Source: Cruoricaptor ignavus
GTDB lineage: Bacteria; Bacteroidota; Bacteroidia; Flavobacteriales; Weeksellaceae
NCBI RefSeq assembly: GCF_900141665.1
Contig: NZ_FQYI01000001.1
Span: forward strand, 62,001-126,000
DNA: 64,000 nt
Reading direction: 5' to 3'
The notes under the pieces are model-generated. The model saw nothing but the letters and a program-made list of their open reading frames with translations. It ran no database searches and had not been told where the DNA came from. A program made the translations under genes and the position numbers. Below, piece by piece: positions 13,979 through 25,982 of the stretch (its first letter is position 1; each line of letters starts with the position of its first letter).

Positions 13979-14624
13979 TTAATTAACAGGTTTCCAGAAG
14001 CTCCAGACGGTGCCGTTGAAAACCGCCAGCCTTTTGGCACCGGCCTTATTCACGAAAACCATCATCCCCGGTGAAGGGCTTGGTATACTATTCACATCAT
14101 CTACCGTAGGCAAAACCATAGCCTTAGTCTTGGATTCCAGGACGAGAACGCCATCCTTTGCGAGGATAAGAAACTCAGCTTCTTCAGCTGGCGTTGAAAA
14201 CAGCGAAGGCTGCAGCAACTTCCTTTCTGCAGCTGCAAGCGCTTCCGCACTTTTCGTACGGCGTTCCTTTTCCGCTGCCGCTACTTCTGCGCGGATCTTC
14301 TGCATCTTCTTCTCCCGGAATATTTCATCTACATCGCGGAAGAACACCTGTGTTTACGGCCGGCGGCTCATAGCGGCTTCTGCTGCAAGCTTTTCAAGCG
14401 GGCATCATCCGGATCGGCGTTTTTGATATAATCCCGGATCATCTGCATCAGCTCCGGTTTCAGCTGATATTTCCTGGGTTCGCTGGATGACGCGGTGCGC
14501 AGGAACTTATCAATTTTTCAATCTTCTTTACTGCCTGCTTATCGGTGATGTGCGGTTGGGAAGATTTTTGCGCATTTACCGTGAATGTCAGAAAAAGTAG
14601 AATGATATTAGCGAAACGCTTCAT
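13979..14624 (-). pseudogene. Frameshifted secreted protein with the island's shared C-terminal module
   Basis: An ATG at 14624 opens a signal peptide (MKRFANIILLFLTFTVNAQ) but that frame stops after about 52 codons. The coding sense continues in a second frame (KFLRTASSS, then LKPELMQMIRDYIKNADPDD) that stops near 14370, and then in a third frame from about 14350 to 13979. The last part ends in the module seen in neighbouring proteins: GVLVLESKTKAMVLP, then PGMMVF and FNGTVWSFWKP. Two frameshifts are needed to join the pieces into about 214 residues. It may be a true pseudogene or two sequencing indels. The open third-frame part alone is 122 codons. Confidence 0.75.
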
Positions 14625-14656: not shown

Positions 14657-14686
14657 AAAAACCACCACAGACAAAGCCTGCGGCGG
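14657..14686 (-). terminator. Terminator of the first large/small operon
   Basis: Arms CCACCACAG (14662-14670) and CTGCGGCGG (14678-14686) form a 9-bp stem followed on the minus strand by five T residues. A near-identical hairpin ends the second operon at 19539-19568, so it belongs to the duplicated unit. Confidence 0.8.
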
Positions 14687-14720
14687 AAAATAAATTATGG
14701 AATTACAATGAAATAAGGTT

Positions 14721-15653
14721 TTAATTTGGACAAAGATATTTAAGTTTAAATAATTCTGAACGAGACTCCTCGCAACCCTTAATTTTTGCAAGCGTATAGT
14801 AATATATCTCATTCCATGAGCTATTAACAGCATCGGCAGGTGGTATGAAGCTTTTTCCCTCTCCTACCTTGAACCACTCTTCTTGTTCAATTTTATTATA
14901 ATTGTTACTAAAACTATAATACCATTTTATATATTCTACCTCTTCATCGTTAATCACCTTTGTAGGATCATCTCGATCCTGTAATTTCACTTTTAACTCT
15001 ACTACAGGCGAATTTTCACAAATGGCTTGCTCATAACCTATCGGGCTTACTTTTACTATTTCTGTACTACAAGTAGACCAAAAACTCCACACTGTCCCAT
15101 TAAATATAGCGAGCTGCTTTTTTTTGGTATCATAGGCCATCATTCCTGGCGCAGGTCTCTTTATGCTTGTGTGCGGGCTCTGCATTTTAGGTAACACCAT
15201 TGCTTTATTCTTATCAGAAAGAACTAATACACCAGGTGCGCTTTCCTCCTCATCACCAATAAAAGAATTTCCCCCAATATCTTTAAGAGGTTGCTGAAAA
15301 GTCTCAAAATTAGGAACGATACCTTTAGTATTAGCGATGCTCTGGCCATCCAGGTAAAGGTTCTGTTTATTAACAGAGAGTTTAAACCAGTTATTTACAT
15401 TATTACATGGTGAATCCTTGCAATAAGATACCAAACCACTGGTCGCATCCATAGCTATGGTACCAGGCTGCACCACCCTACCATTTTTAGACATTTCTTC
15501 AATATTAGTAACGTAAGGTAAAACGATACCTTTATTCCCCAATCCAAATTCAATAGATACATATTCATTGCTAATAGCATCTTTACCGATTGCGACCTGC
15601 CCAAAAGCATCCAAAGAGAGTAATAATCCTATAGCTAAAATTATTTTTTTCAT
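14721..15653 (-). CDS. Secreted protein, small partner A of the duplicated operon
   Basis: This encodes 310 residues with a signal peptide cut after FGQ (residue 19). An N-terminal module at about 20-95 has VAIGKDAISNEYVSIEFG, LPYV, PGTIAMDA and VSYCKDSPC. The shared C-terminal module follows at about 140-192 (GVLVLSDKNKAMVLP, then PGMMAYD and FNGTVWSFW). A unique 115-residue Cys-containing tail completes it. The second small partner (19595-20191) lacks this tail. The gene lies 24 nt after large partner A and ends at a terminator, so the pair is one operon. There is no T9SS sorting tail. Function is not recognised; a surface or extracellular structural role is an inference. Confidence 0.8.
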   Translation of the reverse strand: MKKIILAIGLLLSLDAFGQVAIGKDAISNEYVSIEFGLGNKGIVLPYVTNIEEMSKNGRVVQPGTIAMDATSGLVSYCKDSPCNNVNNWFKLSVNKQNLYLDGQSIANTKGIVPNFETFQQPLKDIGGNSFIGDEEESAPGVLVLSDKNKAMVLPKMQSPHTSIKRPAPGMMAYDTKKKQLAIFNGTVWSFWSTCSTEIVKVSPIGYEQAICENSPVVELKVKLQDRDDPTKVINDEEVEYIKWYYSFSNNYNKIEQEEWFKVGEGKSFIPPADAVNSSWNEIYYYTLAKIKGCEESRSELFKLKYLCPN

Positions 15654-15677
15654 ATTTTATTATTTAAAAATCAGATT

Positions 15678-18600
15678 TTAAAAGGGACATGCCGGTGCAT
15701 TAAAACATTTCCAAGAAGTACCGTCAAAAATTTTCAAACATTTATTTGTGGTATCATATACTAACATACCTTCCACTGGAATCTTGATATTATCTTCAAT
15801 TTCTTTTTCGGAAAGCCTATTAATTACAAAGCCTTTATTATTAGATTCCAATACCAACCAACCGTTATTTCTAATTCCTGGCCAGTTATTATTTCCAGAA
15901 TGTGCACGGCTGAGTGTAGTGATACCAAATCTAGCAGGCCCATCATTGTCGCCAGAACTATTAGGTAAACGGTAGCACATTTTCCTTAAATGAATTACCA
16001 CTGTTGCTTCCTCGAATAAACCACTACATCCAGATTGAACTTTATATTTAAAAACATACCTACCAGGTAGAGCTCTGGACATTATAAAAGTTTTTCCACT
16101 TAAGAATTCTGGATTCGTAATATCGTTTGTTCCGGGTGCTTCTTCAACTTCCCAAACGCCATGATTATCATAAGTACCTGAAAGATATGAGAATAAATCA
16201 GTATTAATTTTCTCTGAACCGTCGAAATCGATATAGTAAATTCCTCCGATTCCTGCTCTTGGATCATCAAGCATTTCCGGTCTTACATAGATGTGGTCTT
16301 TCACATTCACGCAATAATTCTTGCCGGCAGGCGTTGTAATATGCACCTGATACATACCTTCGTTTGATGCATTCAATTCACCAAGTACAAGCTTAGGTGA
16401 TGTAGAAAGAACGGGGCCGCTAACTTCGTATTCTCCCTGGTTATTTTTTATCATCTTTTGCCATTCAAACCTGAGGTGATCCAGGTTATGAACTGCAAGT
16501 GTAATTCTAGGAGGTGTTACAGAGCAATCAGTCTCCAAGGTAATACCCGGCTCACCAAGAGCACGAACATCTACCACGCGTTCAATCTCTGACCCACAGC
16601 CATCCTCTACCTTAATGTAGTACACACCACCATCCACTTTTGTAAATATAGGGGCTGCGCTATTTGTAATAGCCAATGGTGTGGAGGAGGCTGTTGGCTT
16701 CTCATTATATAGTTTGAATGTAAGGTCTCTATTACCCTTGTTTGCAGCAATTAACAGATCAAACTTGCCACCACCACAAGCAAACGCAAAAGATTCGAAA
16801 TTGAAAGGATAATCAAATCCAGGACCTCCAACAAAGAACATCTCGCTATAAAATGAATCTTCACACAACTCACCCTGCTTACCAGGCTGGTGAGGAGTCA
16901 TTTTATATCTGTAAACACCAGCTTCAGAAAGTAAGGAGGTAGTCTCAAAATCATTACCTGTGATCGAGCCATGGTCTATCGTGCTTAATTCCTCCCAACG
17001 ATAATATGCAAACTTTTCTAATTCAATTCTCAGCCAACTTTTATTAATTGGGTGATATATAGACGTGTTAATCTCATTTAAAAAATTATAATTCACACGT
17101 ATTTTCACTTCAGTTTCCCCATTGCACAGCACCTTGGTATCAAGTTTAATATCTCGTTTATTGATGTCTTGCACTGTAAATTGGCCCTTAATGATTTTAT
17201 TGCAGATTCCATCAAACATCACTGGATTGAACTCATACTTGTATGTTCCCGGAATACTTAGGGGGATTGCCGCAATACTTCCACCGTCATGAAGCATATT
17301 TTGTGGAACTTCATAGTTAGCATCGAAGCCTGCAGGCCCTTCCGTTATTCTTAGATTATGGAATTTAGTATTGTCCCCGTTTGAGAGCGTCATTAAATAT
17401 CCACTATCATTACAATTCAATGTTTGTATAACACTCGTCTTAATATTACTATTTTGATCTTTAATAACTATAGTAGTAGAATAGTCGTCTATAAACTCGT
17501 CTCCGCAAAAATTAATAATCTTTGCCTTGTAGGTACCGGGTGGCAGCGCTTTACCATCAGGCTTTGGCATGTAATTATGCTTTATTTGGAACGTTCCGTG
17601 ATTACTGTTATAATCTTTCGGATTAAAACCCTTCGGGGCTTCTAAAAACTCTACTATGAAGGGTACACCACTATTGATAGGCGCATTATTATCTGAGGGA
17701 TTAGTATATTTCCAACCAAATGAAAATTTATCATTACAGGCAGTTCCTGTACTAAGAGAGGACAACGTAGGCCAAGCAGGCTTCCCTGCGCTCACAACCT
17801 GCGTTTCCTCTCGCCCGCAACCCTCTACCTTAATAGTTACAAGTTTATCATATGGTATTTTAAGGCTTGGATAATAAGTGCCATCAGACCCAAGAGTGAA
17901 TTTCTGGGGACCAAGGCTTTTATCTTGGCCATTTTCATCCTTGTAATAACCTGATACAGTAAGGGTAACAGGCTTAGAACCTATAATATTAGGAATATAT
18001 TCATCGGGCTTACAGATATTCTCTCCAGTAAAAAAAGGAACACCCAAGTTCCATGCATTGCTGAGGCTGAATTCAGCCTTTATGTCTGCACCACAGTTAT
18101 CAACGGCGTTGAAGGTATAATCTCCCACTGGAAGATTGGAAATGGTAAAACTTTTGGTATCAGATGTTATAGTCTTATTACCTGCTTCACTCTTCAAAGT
18201 AATAGTATAAGGCGCGACACCATTTTTAAACTCACCACTTACAGAGCCGGTCTTACAATCGCCTGCTATTGAAGTTTTAAATTTCTTCTGGTCATTTTCC
18301 ACTAAATATAAAAACCGAGGCATTAAATCAACTTGTTGATCTATCTTTTTTCCGCAGGCATCAGAGACCTCTACTTTATAAGATTCTTTAGTAAGCTCCT
18401 TCGAAGTAAAAGTATCCCCTGTAGTAACAGATATGGTCTCCACCACAGTACTACCATCGTAGATTTTAACAGTGTAAGGTAAATTACCATTAGAAATTCT
18501 ACCAGAAATTACATTGGAGCAGGCAACAACTGATCCTTTTAATATATCTAATTTTAAGGGTGGTTGATCGATATGAACCGATGCAGGTGCAGGCTTCACA

Positions 18601-19142
18601 CTACCGCAATCATCATAAACGCGCACATTATAGTAGCCGTTGCTTAGCCCAGTAATATCAAAATTTTGCTCCTTTATTTCTTTGTATTCTTTTACTATAG
18701 TAGCGCCGTCTGGGCTAGTTACTACAATACGGTAAGGCTGGGGCCCGGTTAGATCTTTTACTCTAAGTATGGCACAATTACCATTCTTTACAGATTCAAT
18801 ACTGAAATTTAAAGACTCCGCATAACTATTAATGGTGACAGAATTACTGGTCGCAGTGTAAGTTTCCGTGGTACCAGGCTTGGTAGCTGTGGCCTGAACA
18901 TAGTATGAACCACTAGAAAGCTGCCTGTAAGAAAACGCACTTAGAGATACCACATCAGAATGGGAGCCATTACGCCTTACAGTAAAGGAAAGCTTTGTAC
19001 CATCCGGTTGATTAAATACGGACCATTTAATGCCCCCACGGTTTTCGCAAAATTCATCCGAAACTTTCTCTGCAATTACTTTAAACTGCGCGCTGAACAT
19101 AGACGCAAGAATACAGAGTAAAAAACTGTACAACTTCTTCAT
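15678..19142 (-). CDS. Large secreted repeat protein, partner A
   Basis: The 1154-residue product has a signal peptide ending FSAQ. A long series of degenerate 80-100-residue beta-rich repeats follows; most end in a 'G.Y.v.v.D.CG' pattern (for example GYYNVRVYDDCG and GDYTFNAVDNCG). This resembles SprB-type or Ig-like repeats of flavobacterial surface adhesins. The last 300 residues match partner B and finish with the shared module (GWLVLESNNKGFVINR, GMLVYDTTNKCLKIFDG, WKCFN). No T9SS type A or B tail is seen, so export beyond the Sec pathway is unexplained. It is the first gene of its operon, behind a 350-bp control region that is also duplicated. Confidence 0.8.
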   Translation of the reverse strand: MKKLYSFLLCILASMFSAQFKVIAEKVSDEFCENRGGIKWSVFNQPDGTKLSFTVRRNGSHSDVVSLSAFSYRQLSSGSYYVQATATKPGTTETYTATSNSVTINSYAESLNFSIESVKNGNCAILRVKDLTGPQPYRIVVTSPDGATIVKEYKEIKEQNFDITGLSNGYYNVRVYDDCGSVKPAPASVHIDQPPLKLDILKGSVVACSNVISGRISNGNLPYTVKIYDGSTVVETISVTTGDTFTSKELTKESYKVEVSDACGKKIDQQVDLMPRFLYLVENDQKKFKTSIAGDCKTGSVSGEFKNGVAPYTITLKSEAGNKTITSDTKSFTISNLPVGDYTFNAVDNCGADIKAEFSLSNAWNLGVPFFTGENICKPDEYIPNIIGSKPVTLTVSGYYKDENGQDKSLGPQKFTLGSDGTYYPSLKIPYDKLVTIKVEGCGREETQVVSAGKPAWPTLSSLSTGTACNDKFSFGWKYTNPSDNNAPINSGVPFIVEFLEAPKGFNPKDYNSNHGTFQIKHNYMPKPDGKALPPGTYKAKIINFCGDEFIDDYSTTIVIKDQNSNIKTSVIQTLNCNDSGYLMTLSNGDNTKFHNLRITEGPAGFDANYEVPQNMLHDGGSIAAIPLSIPGTYKYEFNPVMFDGICNKIIKGQFTVQDINKRDIKLDTKVLCNGETEVKIRVNYNFLNEINTSIYHPINKSWLRIELEKFAYYRWEELSTIDHGSITGNDFETTSLLSEAGVYRYKMTPHQPGKQGELCEDSFYSEMFFVGGPGFDYPFNFESFAFACGGGKFDLLIAANKGNRDLTFKLYNEKPTASSTPLAITNSAAPIFTKVDGGVYYIKVEDGCGSEIERVVDVRALGEPGITLETDCSVTPPRITLAVHNLDHLRFEWQKMIKNNQGEYEVSGPVLSTSPKLVLGELNASNEGMYQVHITTPAGKNYCVNVKDHIYVRPEMLDDPRAGIGGIYYIDFDGSEKINTDLFSYLSGTYDNHGVWEVEEAPGTNDITNPEFLSGKTFIMSRALPGRYVFKYKVQSGCSGLFEEATVVIHLRKMCYRLPNSSGDNDGPARFGITTLSRAHSGNNNWPGIRNNGWLVLESNNKGFVINRLSEKEIEDNIKIPVEGMLVYDTTNKCLKIFDGTSWKCFNAPACPF

Positions 19143-19487
19143 AATATTATTAGAAAAATTTCTGTAAAAAAAAGAAAAATTTTATAACAAAAAAAATATG
19201 GAATATTAACGAATTGTTAACACTTCTTCAATACGGCTTATTGGGCGCAATTCCTTGCGCTGAAAAGCACCGAAATGCGGATGTTTCCATACTCATCGAT
19301 ACAAGGCTCAATAGTAGGCGGTGTTTATGAAGAAGATAACTTTAATAACAATTTTCTTCCAAAAGTTCTCAGTTTTGATTTACTTTCCTTTTGTTTTCTT
19401 CGGGTCGTCTCCCTGTTTGCCTTCGAAAAAGGGCATCCGACCGAAAGAAGACCGAAAGAAAATTGGGAGGACGGTGGGAGGAAAACA
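19135..19487 (-). repeat. Direct repeat copy 1: control region of large partner A
   Basis: About 350 bp beginning at the start codon of large partner A is nearly identical to 23133-23481 upstream of large partner B. Differences are scattered substitutions plus indels of about 6 and 9 nt. It should contain the operon promoter and leader for the minus strand. Copy 1 has an altered sequence where copy 2 carries a TATTTTTG -7 box. It is part of a 452-bp stretch without an assigned gene. Confidence 0.85.
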
Positions 19488-19538
19488 GTTAAGAATGGTA
19501 AGATTATGTGGCTCTGCTGCTTATGAACAGATTAAAAT

Positions 19539-19568
19539 AAAAACCACCACAGACAAAACCTGCGGTGG
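19539..19568 (-). terminator. Terminator of the second large/small operon
   Basis: Arms CCACCACAG (19544-19552) and CTGCGGTGG (19560-19568) form a stem followed by five T residues on the minus strand. It is the counterpart of the hairpin at 14657-14686. Confidence 0.8.
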
Positions 19569-19594
19569 AAAAATAAACAATGGGTTAAATGTAA

Positions 19595-20191
19595 TTAATT
19601 TGTTGCTTTCCAGAAACTCCAAACTGTACCGTTGAAAATTGCCAGCTGATTCGTTTTTAAATCATATGCCATCATACCCGGTGCTGGATTTATAATCTTC
19701 AGGTGTGGGCTTTCCATTGAAGGTAGAACCATAGCTTTATTAGCATCGGAAAGAACAAGGATGCCTTCTGCATTATCTTTTTGATTTTCGCCAATAATAA
19801 CCTTTGCTTCTTTATGTTCTTCCTTATTATGTTGAACATTCGCTATATCGGCGGGCACCTTGCCAGTTGTATCATCTATAAAACCATTAGGTAATCTTAC
19901 GTTTGTAACGTTAAATGTCAATGGTGACCAATCAGTCGCATTTTGACAGTTATTCTGCTTGCAGTAGCTCACAATTCCGGTAGCTGCATCCATAATGATA
20001 GTTCCCGGGACAACATTGCCTACACTAACAACCTGGCTGAAGTTTTGCACATATGGTATAATCACACCACGGTTACCATTTCCAAATTCTAAAGACACAG
20101 AAGAACTGGAGACTTCATCTTTACCAAATGCAACCTGTGCGGAGAAATGAGCTGAAGCAGTAAGTATTAAAGTTAGAATTATCTTTTTCAT
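19595..20191 (-). CDS. Secreted protein, small partner B of the duplicated operon
   Basis: The 198-residue product has a signal peptide ending FSAQ and then the same two modules as small partner A. The N-terminal VAFGKDEVSSSSVSLEFG, PYVQN, PGTIIMDA and VSYCK pattern covers about 20-90. The C-terminal GILVLSDANKAMVLP, PGMMAYD and FNGTVWSFW module covers about 143-195. It stops there, so the 115-residue tail of partner A is absent. It starts 6 nt after large partner B and ends at its own terminator. Function is unknown; it is clearly a paralogue of the 14721-15653 product. Confidence 0.8.
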   Translation of the reverse strand: MKKIILTLILTASAHFSAQVAFGKDEVSSSSVSLEFGNGNRGVIIPYVQNFSQVVSVGNVVPGTIIMDAATGIVSYCKQNNCQNATDWSPLTFNVTNVRLPNGFIDDTTGKVPADIANVQHNKEEHKEAKVIIGENQKDNAEGILVLSDANKAMVLPSMESPHLKIINPAPGMMAYDLKTNQLAIFNGTVWSFWKATN

Positions 20192-20197
20192 ATTCTC

Positions 20198-23140
20198 TTA
20201 TTTTGATTTATGATCAGGGCACGCCTGTTTATTAAAGCACTTCCACTGGTTACCATCATATATCTTTAGGCATTTTTCAGTGGTATCATATACCATCATA
20301 CCTTTGACAGATTTATTTTTAGGAATTTTAGTCGCAGGATTATCAACCCTATTGATTACAAAACCCTTGGTATTTGCCTCCATTACCAGCCAAGCTCCTT
20401 TTCTTACCATTGGCCAGTTATCATTCTCAGCACCAGCTCTACCCAGTGCGGTAATACCCGCATTGGTGCTTAATGTTTGACCATCAGTAGCAGGCAATCT
20501 ATAGCAAGCCTCTGGAAGAAGGTGGATAATAACTTGAGAAACCCTACTTATAGTAGTACTGCCACACAAAGCATTTACTGTATATTTAAATTTATATGTG
20601 CCAGGACTGTTTTCGGCAATATTCCAGCGGTTTCCATCTATGGTGGTAAACTTCGAATCGCTCATCACCTCCCACTTCCCAAAGGTATCCGGCTGGCCGC
20701 CAAGGTAATCAAACAGGTTATGACTCTGTGTACCATCATAATAGAAGGCATGTTCACTATCTTGGCCAGCAGACGGATTAGTAAAACTATCCTCGCGAAG
20801 CGTTATTTGGTCATATGTATCCACGCAGTATTCTTTGCCTTCAGGAGACGTGATGTGGACCTGATAAACACCTGCCTTATCAGCAGTGAAATTTTCCAAA
20901 TCCAAGAAGGATTTTGTACTTAGTACACCACCACTAAGAAGGTTACCATTCGCATCTTTTATTTTCCTCCATTCAAACCTTAGAACATCCAAATCGTTTA
21001 CGCGGAGCCGTATTTTTGGTACATTACCATCACAATCTCCGTCCACAGAGATACCCGGTTTATACAGAACAGTTACTTCCACAGCTTGCGTGTTGACTTT
21101 TCCACATTCATCTTTAACATGAACTATATAAACCCCTTTCTCTAATTTCGTAAATACAGGCTCATTTTGGTAAGGATGAATTACAACACCATTTTTAGAA
21201 AGTGCGTAAGTTAGTTTTTGACTACCTTTTTTAGCTGATACAAATAAATTATATGATTTATTAGAACATTCGAAAGATTGGGTCTTAATTTCAAGGGCGT
21301 CCGTAGGGTTATTATATTCAAATTCATAAATAACAGATGGCTCACTACAGTTACTACTATAAAACAACCCATCGTCTTTTAGAGTATTGTACACATTACC
21401 AGTCTGCCTAACTTGATAAATTCCGGTAGGAAGGTTTCTTGGTTCCCAAGTATAACTTTGCGTTAGTTTAGGATCATCTTTTAGAATTCTATCTCTAGGG
21501 GCTTCTTTATAAAAACTGTATGTGCCATTTGGCTGTTTTTTCCATAGAGAAATTCTTCTATTTAATTCGAATGTACCCAAGTTTTCCCATGTAACTTGGA
21601 TTTTTGGCTGCGCTTCACAGCTGGACACGGGAGCAACTGTGACGGGCAAAGTTTGTATTACATCGAGCTGCTTTTCTTGGCTCTCAGAGGGGCAGTTTTT
21701 GGTTGTAAAAGTATAAGTATACTTACCAATTGGCAAGATAATCGCTCCTTTCGACCTCCCGTTTGTACCTTTAACAAACTGTGTTATATAATATGTTTCC
21801 CCAGCTCCTTGCGCAGAAGCAGATTTTATTGTAATTTTTTCGAAATCAGCATCGCTGGTATTAAATATAACATAGGTTTTATCCGCCTCGCAGGTTGCGG
21901 TTTGATGATAATAAACAAACGGATCACTATCTTTTATTTCATACATGAAATTTTTTTTGTTTCCGCACTGATCTTCAACCTCGAATTTATATATACCTGT
22001 TCCAAAATTTTCAGTATTTGAAAAGGTATGAGCAAACTTTAAAGTGTCATAGTCTGCATTATACTGAGGAATTAAAGTGCTCCCGTCTGGCGCAATAGCT
22101 TTAAGAATTTTAAATTTAGTATTACTTTTAAATGTGAAACTATTCGTGGATTTACAACTAGTAGACGAAAATATTTTAATAGGAAGGACTTCAGGATTAA
22201 GGGGAAGAGTTTGCACCTTGCCGCACAAATCTTCTACTATCAACTTTATATCTTTTGCCGTATTTGGAATCACCAAATCATTACCATAGCGATCTACCGT
22301 TGTTTCTCCCAAGGATTTCGAAGACTTATAGGCTGGTTTCAATTCTTCCACAACCTGGCGATTCCCCGCAGCATCGGTATATGTAATTGCAATTCTCTTC
22401 AACTGCACCTTTTGATTTGGCGACTGTTGATCCAAATTATTTTTCAGGCCCACTTTAAAATTCCAGAAACCACAAGTCTCTACAGTAAAACCATATAAAT
22501 AATCATATTTGCTTTCTTCGCCCTCAGGCATAATATCCCAGATAGGTTTCGTTATTCCTATTTTATACACGAATGCATTCTCTCCGCAAGCATCTATCAC
22601 TTCCACATCATAAAATCCATTTGAGAGATCAGCATAGCTCATTTTTCTTGAGGCGCTTTTGTCAGTCTTAATTAATGTTTTCTTCGTACTATCCTTACTA
22701 TCAATCTTATAAATATTATAAGTATATGGGCCTTTACCCGCGAGAACATTTACATTTAGCGCTTCGCAAGAGGCATCATCTCCGTCGGCAGAAATTTTAA
22801 TTTTCTCAAGTTGATTTTTAATAACAAAATCCAAGGTACCCCTTCTTTTTTCCTCTACAGTCTCGCCAGATATAGTTTCAACTGCTATAATCTGATAATT
22901 GCCAGCTGGTAGAGAGCTATAACTTGGGCCGCTGGATATATTCAATTCTTTATTAGTCTTAAGATCTATAATGGTATAGGAGTAGGAACCATTCGGCCTT
23001 CCATTAGTAACTTTCCACTCAACAGATCCGTTGCTCGGGCAAGTTTCGTGATTAAGACTCGTAATTACAATATTCAGTTTATCTTGCGCGATGAACAATG
23101 AAAAACTGAGCAGTAAGAGGAATGATAAAATTTTCTTCAT
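20198..23140 (-). CDS. Large secreted repeat protein, partner B
   Basis: This 980-residue paralogue of the 15678-19142 product has a signal peptide ending FIAQ. Beta-rich repeats follow with the same 'YdVeViDaCG' endings (for example GFYDVEVIDACG and GTGIYKFEVEDQCG), though fewer of them than in partner A. The C-terminal third aligns with partner A throughout: LRFEWRKI, GVYQVHITSPEGKEYCV, ACYRLP and GAWLVMEANTKGFVINR. It ends with GMMVYDTTEKCLKIYDG and WKCFN. The repeat part has diverged far more than the C-terminal part. No known sorting tail is present. An adhesin or fibre-like role is plausible but unproven. Confidence 0.8.
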   Translation of the reverse strand: MKKILSFLLLLSFSLFIAQDKLNIVITSLNHETCPSNGSVEWKVTNGRPNGSYSYTIIDLKTNKELNISSGPSYSSLPAGNYQIIAVETISGETVEEKRRGTLDFVIKNQLEKIKISADGDDASCEALNVNVLAGKGPYTYNIYKIDSKDSTKKTLIKTDKSASRKMSYADLSNGFYDVEVIDACGENAFVYKIGITKPIWDIMPEGEESKYDYLYGFTVETCGFWNFKVGLKNNLDQQSPNQKVQLKRIAITYTDAAGNRQVVEELKPAYKSSKSLGETTVDRYGNDLVIPNTAKDIKLIVEDLCGKVQTLPLNPEVLPIKIFSSTSCKSTNSFTFKSNTKFKILKAIAPDGSTLIPQYNADYDTLKFAHTFSNTENFGTGIYKFEVEDQCGNKKNFMYEIKDSDPFVYYHQTATCEADKTYVIFNTSDADFEKITIKSASAQGAGETYYITQFVKGTNGRSKGAIILPIGKYTYTFTTKNCPSESQEKQLDVIQTLPVTVAPVSSCEAQPKIQVTWENLGTFELNRRISLWKKQPNGTYSFYKEAPRDRILKDDPKLTQSYTWEPRNLPTGIYQVRQTGNVYNTLKDDGLFYSSNCSEPSVIYEFEYNNPTDALEIKTQSFECSNKSYNLFVSAKKGSQKLTYALSKNGVVIHPYQNEPVFTKLEKGVYIVHVKDECGKVNTQAVEVTVLYKPGISVDGDCDGNVPKIRLRVNDLDVLRFEWRKIKDANGNLLSGGVLSTKSFLDLENFTADKAGVYQVHITSPEGKEYCVDTYDQITLREDSFTNPSAGQDSEHAFYYDGTQSHNLFDYLGGQPDTFGKWEVMSDSKFTTIDGNRWNIAENSPGTYKFKYTVNALCGSTTISRVSQVIIHLLPEACYRLPATDGQTLSTNAGITALGRAGAENDNWPMVRKGAWLVMEANTKGFVINRVDNPATKIPKNKSVKGMMVYDTTEKCLKIYDGNQWKCFNKQACPDHKSK

Positions 23141-23481
23141 AATATTATTAAAAAAATTTCTGCAAAAATAGAAATATTTTATAACAAAAATAATATGGAA
23201 TATTAACGAATTGTTAACACTTCTTCAATACGGCTTATTGGGGGCAATTCCTTGCGTTGAAAAGTACCGAAATACGGATGTTTCCATACTCATCGATACA
23301 AGGGTCCTCAATAATAGTAGGCGATGTTTATGAAGAAGATAACTTTAATAATAATTTTCTTCCAAAAGTTCTCAGTTTTGATTTACTTTCCTTTTGTTTT
23401 ATCTCCCTGTTTGCCTTCGAAAAAGGGCATCCGACCGAAAGAAGACCGAAAGAAAATTGGAAGGACGGTGGGAGGAAAACA
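23133..23481 (-). repeat. Direct repeat copy 2: control region of large partner B
   Basis: This is the second copy of the 350-bp control region (see 19135-19487), beginning at the start codon of large partner B. On the minus strand it shows a TATTTTTG -7-like box about 25 nt before the start codon, but no well-spaced TTG at -33. It is part of the 502-bp divergent gap between the minus-strand operon and the plus-strand trio; no convincing gene lies in it. Confidence 0.85.
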
Positions 23482-23503
23482 TTTTGAATTGACTACAAGA
23501 CAA

Positions 23504-23531: not shown

Positions 23532-23594
23532 AAAAAACGCTAACAAAAATTGCAACATATTTATATCAGATTTAACAATTTGTTAATATATATA

Positions 23595-23625
23595 TTGCAT
23601 TTCTCTGAATATTTTATTATTTTAG
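23595..23625 (+). promoter_or_regulatory. Likely promoter of the three-gene plus-strand run
   Basis: TTG at 23595-23597, a 20-nt spacer and TATTTTAG at 23618-23625 match the Bacteroidota promoter with one mismatch in the -7 box. The ATG at 23643 lies 17 nt beyond the box. Confidence 0.55.
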
Positions 23626-23642
23626 CAGAAAAATTCTGTATT

Positions 23643-24404
23643 ATGCGTTTTAAGATTATTGCCTCTATTTTCCATCTGGTACTTTTTTCGGCTGCTTTCG
23701 GCCAGCAATATACGGGCAAGGTGGGCATAAACACAGAAGAGCCCAAGGAAATCTTCGATGTGAACGGCACCATGCGCGTACGCGAACTGCCCAACCGCAA
23801 CGGCGGGAAAATATACAACGGAAACGATACAAAACAGACGGACTTCATCCCTACCAAAACCGTAATCGCAGATACTAACGGCGTGCTGGGCACTGCAGAG
23901 AGATTCTATGACCCGGCTAAGATATTCCCCGCCTATGCCAAGCTGGATCCAAATATAACTATAGAGGAAAACGGATATCATTCCATTGTAGGCGGAGAGC
24001 TTTCCTGCATACAGCTGAGCCTAAATCTCACGGGCAATACTTCCGTAACGAAACAGGCACAGCTTTTCATTCGCCTTAACCCCGATAATACCGCACAGAA
24101 ATGCCAAAGCTCAGACGGAACGCTGCAGATGCCTGCCAGCGGCAAATTATTTACAATAATAATGTACTCATTGAACAATTCAAATTCAATCAGCGCCAAT
24201 AACCCCTACGCCAGATACGACCTTGGCACAGATTGGATAAACGCTGCAGGTGGTAAGCAATCCGTGTTATATAACCCTGTATGGCGTTCAGGCGTAATCC
24301 ACTTGCCAGAAATCGCGCAATCTTACAGGTTTTTTGCTACAGCTACACGGTACGACTCCAGCCTGCCAGTGGCTACTTTCGTTCACCTCACCCGGTTGAG
24401 ATAA
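23643..24404 (+). CDS. Secreted protein with VGINT/DVNGT head module, paralogue 1
   Basis: The product is 253 residues when started at ATG 23643; an upstream in-frame start at 23550 would put 31 odd residues ahead of the signal peptide and would lie upstream of the promoter. The signal peptide ends FGQ. The head module KVGINTEEPKEIFDVNGTMRV, with LPN, GKIYNG, PTKTVIAD and GVLGT, covers about 25-85. It is common at the N-terminus of secreted Bacteroidota proteins. The body of about 165 residues ends 'YRFFATATR...F.HLTRLR' and matches the two following genes in overall plan. Function is unknown. It is the first gene of a three-gene operon. Confidence 0.8.
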   Translation: MRFKIIASIFHLVLFSAAFGQQYTGKVGINTEEPKEIFDVNGTMRVRELPNRNGGKIYNGNDTKQTDFIPTKTVIADTNGVLGTAERFYDPAKIFPAYAKLDPNITIEENGYHSIVGGELSCIQLSLNLTGNTSVTKQAQLFIRLNPDNTAQKCQSSDGTLQMPASGKLFTIIMYSLNNSNSISANNPYARYDLGTDWINAAGGKQSVLYNPVWRSGVIHLPEIAQSYRFFATATRYDSSLPVATFVHLTRLR

Positions 24405-24428
24405 ATTTTACTAAAAAATACAAATACG

Positions 24429-25202
24429 ATGAAAAAAATAAATAAATATACAGCCGTCGCAGCCCTTCTCCTCTCCTGTAGCGGCTTCGCGCAAAGCAAC
24501 CCGAAAAATAAGGTAGGAATCAATACAAATCAGCCAACAGAAACGCTGGATATCAACGGAACTGCGCAGATACGCAGCCTTCCTCTTGGCTGGGATGGCA
24601 AAACCTACAATGGAGCAGAAACCCAGGGTACCACCTTTATCCCTACCAAAACAGTAATAGCGGATCCATCCGGAAACATCGGCACCATAGACGGCGTACT
24701 TCGACCTTATATAGACATTTATAAATCCAACACAGGGCTTAGCATCGGGCAAGAAACTGGCTACCAGGCAATAAGCTCTGCGGACGGCTGCATCAGCATC
24801 TGTTGGGAAGTAAAGCTGCCGGATGAATTTACAGCAATGCTCGCAGTAAAAGTAAATAAAGAAAAATGCGGAAAAACTGACACCCCTTTTTTGCTGAATG
24901 TAAACTACAGGGTAGCCAACTCAGCAGGCGTAGGCTCCTTTGTTTGGCCTAACGCAGAAAATCAATTCAGCGTAAAAGATCCTGGTACAGAATGGATACG
25001 CTTCAGGAGTGGCTCAATAGGTACAGAGAATACCTGGCTGGCAGACGGCTCCATACAGCTCTGGGGCTCCAGGGTAGTCAACGGTGCCAGGGAAAATACT
25101 CTTAGGAACTACCGCTTTATGGCTTCCACCAAGGACGGCAGCAAGGTAGGAGGAAAACTGAATGACTATAATATCTTCACGGAGATCAAGAGAAATTATT
25201 AA
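24429..25202 (+). CDS. Secreted protein with VGINT/DINGT head module, paralogue 2
   Basis: This encodes 257 residues with a signal peptide (ending GFAQ). The head module at about 30-95 has KVGINTNQPTETLDINGTA, IRSLP, GKTYNGAE, PTKTVIAD and GNIGTIDG. A body with two Cys-bearing stretches (SADGCISICW, KEKCGK) ends 'NYRFMAST...F.EIKRNY'. It starts 24 nt after paralogue 1 and lies 6 nt before paralogue 3, so all three are co-transcribed. No sorting tail is present. The function is not recognised. Confidence 0.8.
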   Translation: MKKINKYTAVAALLLSCSGFAQSNPKNKVGINTNQPTETLDINGTAQIRSLPLGWDGKTYNGAETQGTTFIPTKTVIADPSGNIGTIDGVLRPYIDIYKSNTGLSIGQETGYQAISSADGCISICWEVKLPDEFTAMLAVKVNKEKCGKTDTPFLLNVNYRVANSAGVGSFVWPNAENQFSVKDPGTEWIRFRSGSIGTENTWLADGSIQLWGSRVVNGARENTLRNYRFMASTKDGSKVGGKLNDYNIFTEIKRNY

Positions 25203-25208
25203 AAAAAG

Positions 25209-25982
25209 ATGAGAAAAACAATATTTTTTTCGGCACTTCTCACTGCTACAGTTGCTCTATCCCAATCTACAGGGAAAGTTAGCATAGCCCTTCCAGAAAA
25301 CACACAGCCACAGGAAACCCTGGATATTGGAGGTACAATACGCATCCGTAGCTTGCCTAACAACAAGAACGGTAAGATATACGCCGGAGCGCAGGAGCAA
25401 ACTACAAATTATGACCCCTCCAGAACTGTGGTAACTGATAACAGCGGCAATCTTGGTTATCTGGATGGCTTCGTAGCACCTGAAGAAGAATACTACACAC
25501 CGGATTCTGGCTTCAGCACCGGCAGGAATCTTTGGGACAATCCACAATACATTGATGAATGGATAGCTATATCCGGGAACGATTGCGTACAGCTCGGGTG
25601 GAGGCCGTGGCTAAATAGTACAAAAGTGGGAGTTGTAGGTGCGCTAGGAGCAAGGCTAAATGATGACATATCAAAATGCGGCAATAATCCAGAGGATGAG
25701 GGATACATCACTTATTACTTCCACAGTGCCGACGCTGGATTATTTGGATCGACATCTGCCGATGTAAAAAGGACGACGATAAAACGAGGACAATGGACAG
25801 ATCTTACTAATGCGATAGATTTTCCAGATTCTACGCTATTTGATGGTATAATTATGCTATGGAATGACACTAATGGTAATAGATACGACAGAATCTACCG
25901 CGTCAAAGCAATGACCAACAATGGATACACAAGCCGTATACGCCCAATAACCGCATTTACCTACATCCAAAGGATTCATTAA
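25209..25982 (+). CDS. Secreted protein with head module, paralogue 3
   Basis: The product is 257 residues, the same length as paralogue 2. The signal peptide ends ALSQ. The head module at about 20-85 (GKVSIALPENTQPQETLDI, IRSLPN, GKIYAGAQ, TVVTD, GNLGYLDG) has lost the exact VGINT motif but is otherwise collinear. The body keeps one Cys before a 'QLGWRPW' segment and a second in 'ISKCG', and ends 'YRVKAMT...F.YIQRIH'. A plus-strand terminator follows at 26044. Function is unknown. Confidence 0.8.
   Translation: MRKTIFFSALLTATVALSQSTGKVSIALPENTQPQETLDIGGTIRIRSLPNNKNGKIYAGAQEQTTNYDPSRTVVTDNSGNLGYLDGFVAPEEEYYTPDSGFSTGRNLWDNPQYIDEWIAISGNDCVQLGWRPWLNSTKVGVVGALGARLNDDISKCGNNPEDEGYITYYFHSADAGLFGSTSADVKRTTIKRGQWTDLTNAIDFPDSTLFDGIIMLWNDTNGNRYDRIYRVKAMTNNGYTSRIRPITAFTYIQRIH

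Follow-up and report, generated by a model that had tools for sequence, protein, structure and literature searches.

A two-gene unit, present twice in a 64,000-nucleotide stretch of the Cruoricaptor ignavus genome (positions 62,001 to 126,000 of contig NZ_FQYI01000001.1, hereafter the window) and widespread in the Weeksellaceae, encodes a large surface-type protein and a small secreted protein that contain copies of the same module, one in the large protein and two in the small protein. The small protein is probably an obligate partner, whose two modules would combine with the single module of the large protein to form a pseudo-trimeric knob at the large C-terminus. At the level of sequence, the pairing of the genes, the strict one-plus-two count, the co-divergence of the partners and the signal-sequence-like N-termini of both products are shown by the comparisons described below.

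Two gene pairs in the window

Both pairs lie on the minus strand of this genome of ~2.23 Mb, with rpoB on one side and a group of small secreted-protein genes on the other (Table 1). The earlier note, which was made from the letters of the window and a list of ORFs, had described tandem two-gene units, each with the same control region and a similar terminator. The control regions were found to be 91 % identical over 344 bp, with these two copies genome-wide and none further, and the 11-pair stems of the two terminators are nearly identical, in agreement with that description. The two pairs are likewise real, but they are not the product of a simple recent duplication, because the large coding sequences are 30–40 % identical despite the 91 % identity of the control regions. 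Identity between large A and large B is 40 % across the final 370 residues and 30 % across the initial 190, and small A and small B are 53 % identical. The presence of 91 % identical control regions in front of genes for proteins with 30–53 % identity suggests either that the control region underwent gene conversion or that the coding sequences diverged rapidly. A third intact large/small pair is located elsewhere in the genome (contig 15, as against contig 24 for the window).

Three further features of the region were recorded. Small protein B has ~115 extra residues after the second module (about 14721–15062), which are absent from small A and from the small protein of the third pair. The broken gene next to pair B is interrupted by stops in its first half and ends in a clear module copy, while the middle of this gene is rich in Ala, Glu and Lys and is unlike the small proteins. 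On the plus strand, at 23550–25982 of the window, three consecutive genes encode paralogous secreted proteins of about 257–284 aa without a Pfam match, which start with the motif VGIN..P.E.LD.NGT.RIR.LP, typical of fibre-like proteins.

Table 1. Features of the two gene pairs and the adjoining broken gene (positions in the window)
Feature	Position	Strand	Basis or remarks
Control region, pair A	23141–23500	-	91 % identity to pair B counterpart over 344 bp
Large protein A, 980 aa	20198–23140	-	Sec-type signal sequence; Ig-like/beta-rich body (weak Ig-like matches)
Large A C-terminal domain, single module	20201–20518	-	Profile comparison; predicted to fold with small A
Small protein A, 198 aa	19595–20191	-	Signal sequence and two modules
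Small A first module	19916–20137	-	Profile match to other copies; likeness to collagen XV/XVIII trimerization domain
Small A second module	19604–19807	-	Profile match; part resembles Mtd N-terminal region
Terminator, pair A	19544–19568	-	11-pair stem
Control region, pair B	19143–19490	-	91 % identity to pair A counterpart
Large protein B, 1154 aa	15678–19142	-	ORF; compared with large A
Large B C-terminal domain, single module	15681–15989	-	Sequence comparison
Small protein B, 310 aa	14721–15653	-	Signal sequence, two modules, extra C-terminal domain
Small B first module	15375–15599	-	Alignment to small A
Small B second module	15075–15269	-	Alignment to small A
Terminator, pair B	14662–14686	-	11-pair stem
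Broken gene with module copy near end (about 13988–14176)	13979–14620	-	Copy most like small second module

The module and its one-plus-two count

Each of the four products contains the module, as does the broken gene, in line with the earlier note, and the homology of the copies is significant by profile–profile comparison. The copy in the large protein is closest to the second, C-terminal copy of the small protein (E=6e-14), with values of E=2e-8 for the first against the second small copy and E=5e-6 for the large copy against the first. The C-terminal domain of large A follows the pattern CYRLP...WLVMEANTKGFVINR...GMMVYDT..CLKIYDGNQWKCF..ACP. The first small module reads QVAIGK...SVSLEF...KGLILP.V...GT.IYD...KVKY....W..LS and the second KV.IG...GILVLSD.NKAMILP.V.SPH..I.NP.PGMMVYDT..KQLAVFNGTVWSFW.

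A count of one module per protein, as originally proposed, did not hold; small proteins contain two modules and large proteins contain exactly one, at the C-terminus. To establish this count, 90 small genes from 89 loci were compared, a set that includes the third pair and the window pairs of this genome. The first-then-second module order was present in 90 of 90 small proteins, and exactly one module was present in 81 of 81 paired large proteins, located at the extreme C-terminus in 79. No protein in the 89 loci carries all three modules. Natural fusions of the large and small proteins were absent from these loci and from the full-length in-frame matches listed, so that there is no Rosetta-stone support for the association. 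The large A and small A genes are in the same frame and are separated by a TAA stop and two codons (window 20191–20200), yet a natural fusion was not found.

No Pfam or NCBIfam model reached its cut-off for the small protein or for the pair. A weak match of DUF2793 (PF10983) to the last part of the module was obtained for all 49 small proteins scanned (best value 3.5e-5), with small A scoring 17.1 bits, under the curated cut-off of 27 bits. The collagen XV/XVIII-type family PF20010 had no match above the cut-off and was seen in one of the 49 small proteins at E 0.01 only. The module appears to belong to a generic type of trimerization module that occurs singly in other proteins, but the one-plus-two pair is specific.

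Distribution and co-divergence of the pairs

Profile searches of 100 Weeksellaceae genomes gave matches to the small protein in 70 genomes (up to 23 per genome) and to the large C-terminus in 72 (up to 22 per genome), mostly the same genomes. In a larger sample, the unit was present in 195 of 246 Weeksellaceae genomes. One strict motif identified 450 encoding places in named genomes, with Riemerella, Kaistella, Chryseobacterium, Epilithonimonas, Cloacibacterium, Empedobacter, one Flavobacterium and one Sphingobacterium among the matches listed. In a phylum-wide search, the complete two-module protein was detected in Weeksellaceae only, and single-module matches were also obtained elsewhere in the Bacteroidota.

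The small gene was directly 3' of a large gene in 81 of 90 cases, commonly with a gap of 6–100 nt, and about 36 of 41 small genes in an independent sample were paired with an adjoining large gene. For most of the non-adjacent small genes (about 8 of the 90 units), a large gene was present farther upstream with other genes intervening; lone small genes were very few. The earlier note had proposed a profile search for co-occurring pairs, and had set against its own reading a generic domain without such co-occurrence; the module type appears to be generic, but the pairs occur nearly always together. In some Chryseobacterium/Epilithonimonas units (L096, 5535–7980; L117, 5366–7832; L122, 4191–7975), one or two extra large proteins, which end in a short C.AGTTAP-like tail and not in the module, are encoded between the large and the small gene.

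Distances between large proteins were correlated with those between their small partners (r 0.63) more strongly than in within-genome shuffles (0.47 +/- 0.06; 0 of 5000 reached 0.63). For the sequences, this co-divergence shows inheritance as a unit; contact is not implied by co-divergence alone, since operon linkage alone would yield the same pattern. Covariation between large and small columns, calculated from 123 pairs (effective number 54), yielded a single outlier pair and exceeded the shuffles, and was not counted as evidence of contact because the alignment is too shallow and the signal is phylogeny-driven. The gene neighbourhoods were also scanned for a third component that recurs, for example a barrel, and none was found that accompanies most units. 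A phage or plasmid origin was also considered and was rejected, as the small protein had no match in phage and plasmid collections.

Predicted association of the large C-terminus with the small protein

As the stop codon of the large gene of pair A is in frame with the small gene, the TAA was read as a residue to give a single fused chain consisting of the large C-terminal domain, a linker (the small signal sequence) and the small protein. The alignment for this chain had 108 rows, including 16 true pairs, and was somewhat deeper over the small part (63 rows vs 49). AlphaFold2 predicted the fused chain with a mean pLDDT of 89.7 and a pTM of 0.88, with only the linker poor, while the small protein alone, used as a control, reached a pLDDT of 75.7 and a pTM of 0.41; both are single-chain predictions, in which tethered homologous modules may pack together more readily. 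Freely placed parts would cap the pTM near 0.57. Nearly all blocks of the mature small protein gained confidence when fused, except the last third of the second module, and the first core strand, VSLEF, was unformed in the control.

An association of the large C-terminus with the small protein is thus predicted with confidence by the model, and the fold of the small protein is predicted to depend on the large C-terminus. This supports the proposal of the earlier note that the partners co-assemble through their common module, and the outcome that it had held against this proposal, a prediction without contact between partners, did not arise, as the parts of the fused single chain were placed confidently relative to each other. 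All three module copies in the fused model have the element order strand, strand, helix, strand, strand, and most of them add a closing strand. The count of one large and two small modules and the pTM are consistent with three copies around a common axis, from which we infer that the modules may pack with three-fold geometry.

Resemblance of the module to trimerization domains

Fold matches were obtained with the modules of the model of the small protein alone. The match to the collagen XV trimerization domain (3n3f) covered 52 of 53 residues (Z 4.4, 3.2 A), and further matches were to the collagen XVIII trimerization domain, to the N-terminal region of Mtd, a phage protein (44 residues at 2.1–2.3 A), and to phage tailspikes, fibres and hyaluronidases. 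Chitin-binding domains scored like the trimerization modules. Z values of 4–5 support this resemblance modestly, as values under 8 can reflect a common arrangement and do not prove a shared fold.

For one phage lyase that has the collagen XVIII fold, the structure is described as a triangular prism built from three equivalent strands, with outward-facing helices (PMC8822698). The idea of a pseudo-trimer of one large and two small modules predates any known fold match. The fused model had no match in the PDB (Foldseek, VIA-align), as expected for a multi-chain prism written as one chain, and had weak matches in a viral library, many of them to tail-fibre or structural proteins. Against PDB sequences, the small profile matched nothing and the large profile gave chance-level Ig-like matches in its Ig part and otherwise none.

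Large proteins and export

Weak Pfam matches indicate that the bodies of large A and B are chains of Ig-like beta domains. Large proteins of other species contain GEVED, RCC1-like, legume-lectin, F5/8C and FG-GAP domains, and the C-terminus is the only constant part; by sequence, these domains are typical surface or secreted modules.

The earlier note had seen no type IX secretion, autotransporter or anchoring signal, and this stands against the Pfam and NCBIfam models. Type A, B and C sorting domains were searched for at the large C-terminus with NCBIfam models and none was found; the type A model TIGR04183 gave internal weak matches only (residues 132–180 and 727–769) and none at the C-terminus, and types B and C gave none. 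No Pfam or NCBIfam match up to E 1 was obtained for the YadA-type C-terminal membrane anchor of trimeric autotransporter adhesins. The same models detected no TpsB-type barrel with POTRA domains in the small protein, which has the two modules instead. A PorP/SprF-type barrel was not found beside the large gene, where the adjoining gene encodes the 198-aa two-module protein.

The genome encodes SprA and about 33 type A cargo proteins. SprA was present in all 15 of the genomes with a profile match in the phylum-wide search, compared with 228 of 296 overall; given how common SprA is, this overlap is hardly informative, and in 9 of the 15 genomes the matches were only partial ones to a single module. 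Near the third pair, a protein with Cleaved_Adhesin and GEVED domains (L007, 10990–12537) ends in a type A sorting domain. By analogy with this neighbour, the C-terminal domain of the large protein may have a comparable sorting role.

Alternative explanations

The main alternatives are an export-only role and separate homotrimers. The large C-terminal domain could be a new class of type IX sorting signal, with the small protein acting as a dedicated export partner or chaperone, like SprF for type B SprB, that is released after export. The domain does occupy the C-terminal place that the type A signal takes in other GEVED proteins, the genome has the SprA and type A cargo already described, and genes for type B cargo are usually found clustered with a PorP/SprF partner of their own (PMC10202324). 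However, the SprA overlap has little weight for the reasons given above, and the small protein is not a beta-barrel; a role in export only is considered somewhat doubtful.

It is unlikely that the module is simply a generic homotrimerization domain, by which the large protein trimerizes through its own C-terminus and the small protein forms a separate trimer, with an operon in common and no complex. In collagen XV/XVIII and in phage proteins this type of fold forms homotrimers, single module-like copies occur in other Bacteroidota proteins and there are weak matches to phage-type families, all of which would fit separate trimers, but neither the strict division into one copy in 81 large proteins and two in 90 small proteins nor the near-obligate adjacency of the genes would be expected, and the small protein is predicted to fold poorly alone and confidently with the large domain. 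An independent secreted small protein that merely rides in the transcript, with a likeness to the large protein left by a past duplication of the end of the large gene, is very improbable. The modules are homologous and each gene has its own signal sequence, as this would require, but the pairing is kept in most units over many genera, natural fusions are lacking, lone small genes are very few and the fold of the small protein is predicted to depend on the large C-terminus.

Proposed model and significance

In the preferred explanation, an obligate small partner completing a pseudo-trimeric knob, the products of each unit would be a modular, adhesin- or lectin-like large protein of surface type and a small partner that is secreted. 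Sec-type signal sequences are present on both, and the two would come together either in the periplasm or on the cell surface. The single module at the end of the large protein is probably of a type that normally works as three identical copies, and the small protein would bring the other two on one chain. Closed together, the three modules would give one large chain a pseudo-trimeric, prism-like C-terminal knob, locking the small protein on as an obligate subunit. This folded tail would most likely be the recognition or anchoring element for display at the cell surface, probably via the type IX route present in the genome. As a tentative extension, the pairs may represent a new class of surface display, in which a C-terminal signal or anchor arises only once a co-encoded partner has donated two of three trimerization modules, and the resulting hetero pseudo-trimer is recognized by the type IX machinery or the cell surface, for many adhesins and lectins across the Weeksellaceae.

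The module type and the large surface proteins are of known kinds, while the conserved one-plus-two pair has no family model. The earlier note knew of no system with this layout, and no description of the two-gene unit was found in the open literature, which is weak evidence as most subscription papers lie outside that scope. About four-fifths of the Weeksellaceae genomes sampled carry the unit, often in many copies, and these include Chryseobacterium, Epilithonimonas, Empedobacter and Riemerella. Should the predicted complex hold, a module that elsewhere forms homotrimers has been divided one plus two, so that a single large protein bears a trimer-type knob. This would be a clean example of pseudo-symmetry in nature, and the knob would serve surface proteins generally as a plug-in tail. 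The display of many large proteins of these bacteria that have none of the known type IX sorting signals could then also be explained, and a true joint tail as predicted would amount to a new mode of surface protein assembly or display in bacteria.

Comparison with known systems

The short module, predicted to consist of beta-strands and one helix, bears a modest likeness to the trimerization domain of collagen XV/XVIII (multiplexin) and the phage relatives of that fold (the K1 lyase N-terminus, the Mtd N-terminus and tailspikes). The likeness to the collagen fold comprises a second half with a P..G...Y...L...NG..W-like pattern and a modest structural match that covers almost the whole collagen domain. 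These proteins are homotrimers of one chain, whereas the copies described here are split one plus two between two proteins. DUF2793 (PF10983) resembles the end of the module weakly, and the two-module and pair architecture is outside that family.

Two-partner secretion (type Vb) also has two adjoining genes and one large exported protein, but there is no TpsB-like barrel here and the small protein has a module in common with the large protein. Donor-strand complemented fimbrial subunits of chaperone-usher and type V pili resemble the proposed complex in that a fold is completed by part of another protein; here, whole modules would be supplied instead of one strand, and a closed pseudo-trimer would be expected instead of a polymer. 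The closest functional parallel is SprB/SprF of type IX secretion (type B), in which the C-terminal signal depends on a partner whose gene lies close by (PMC10202324). In both systems, a large protein of the surface adhesin type has a C-terminal domain, and the gene next to it encodes a dedicated partner; they differ in that the partner described here is a small, secretory two-module protein rather than a beta-barrel and the C-terminal domain lies outside the type A, B and C models.
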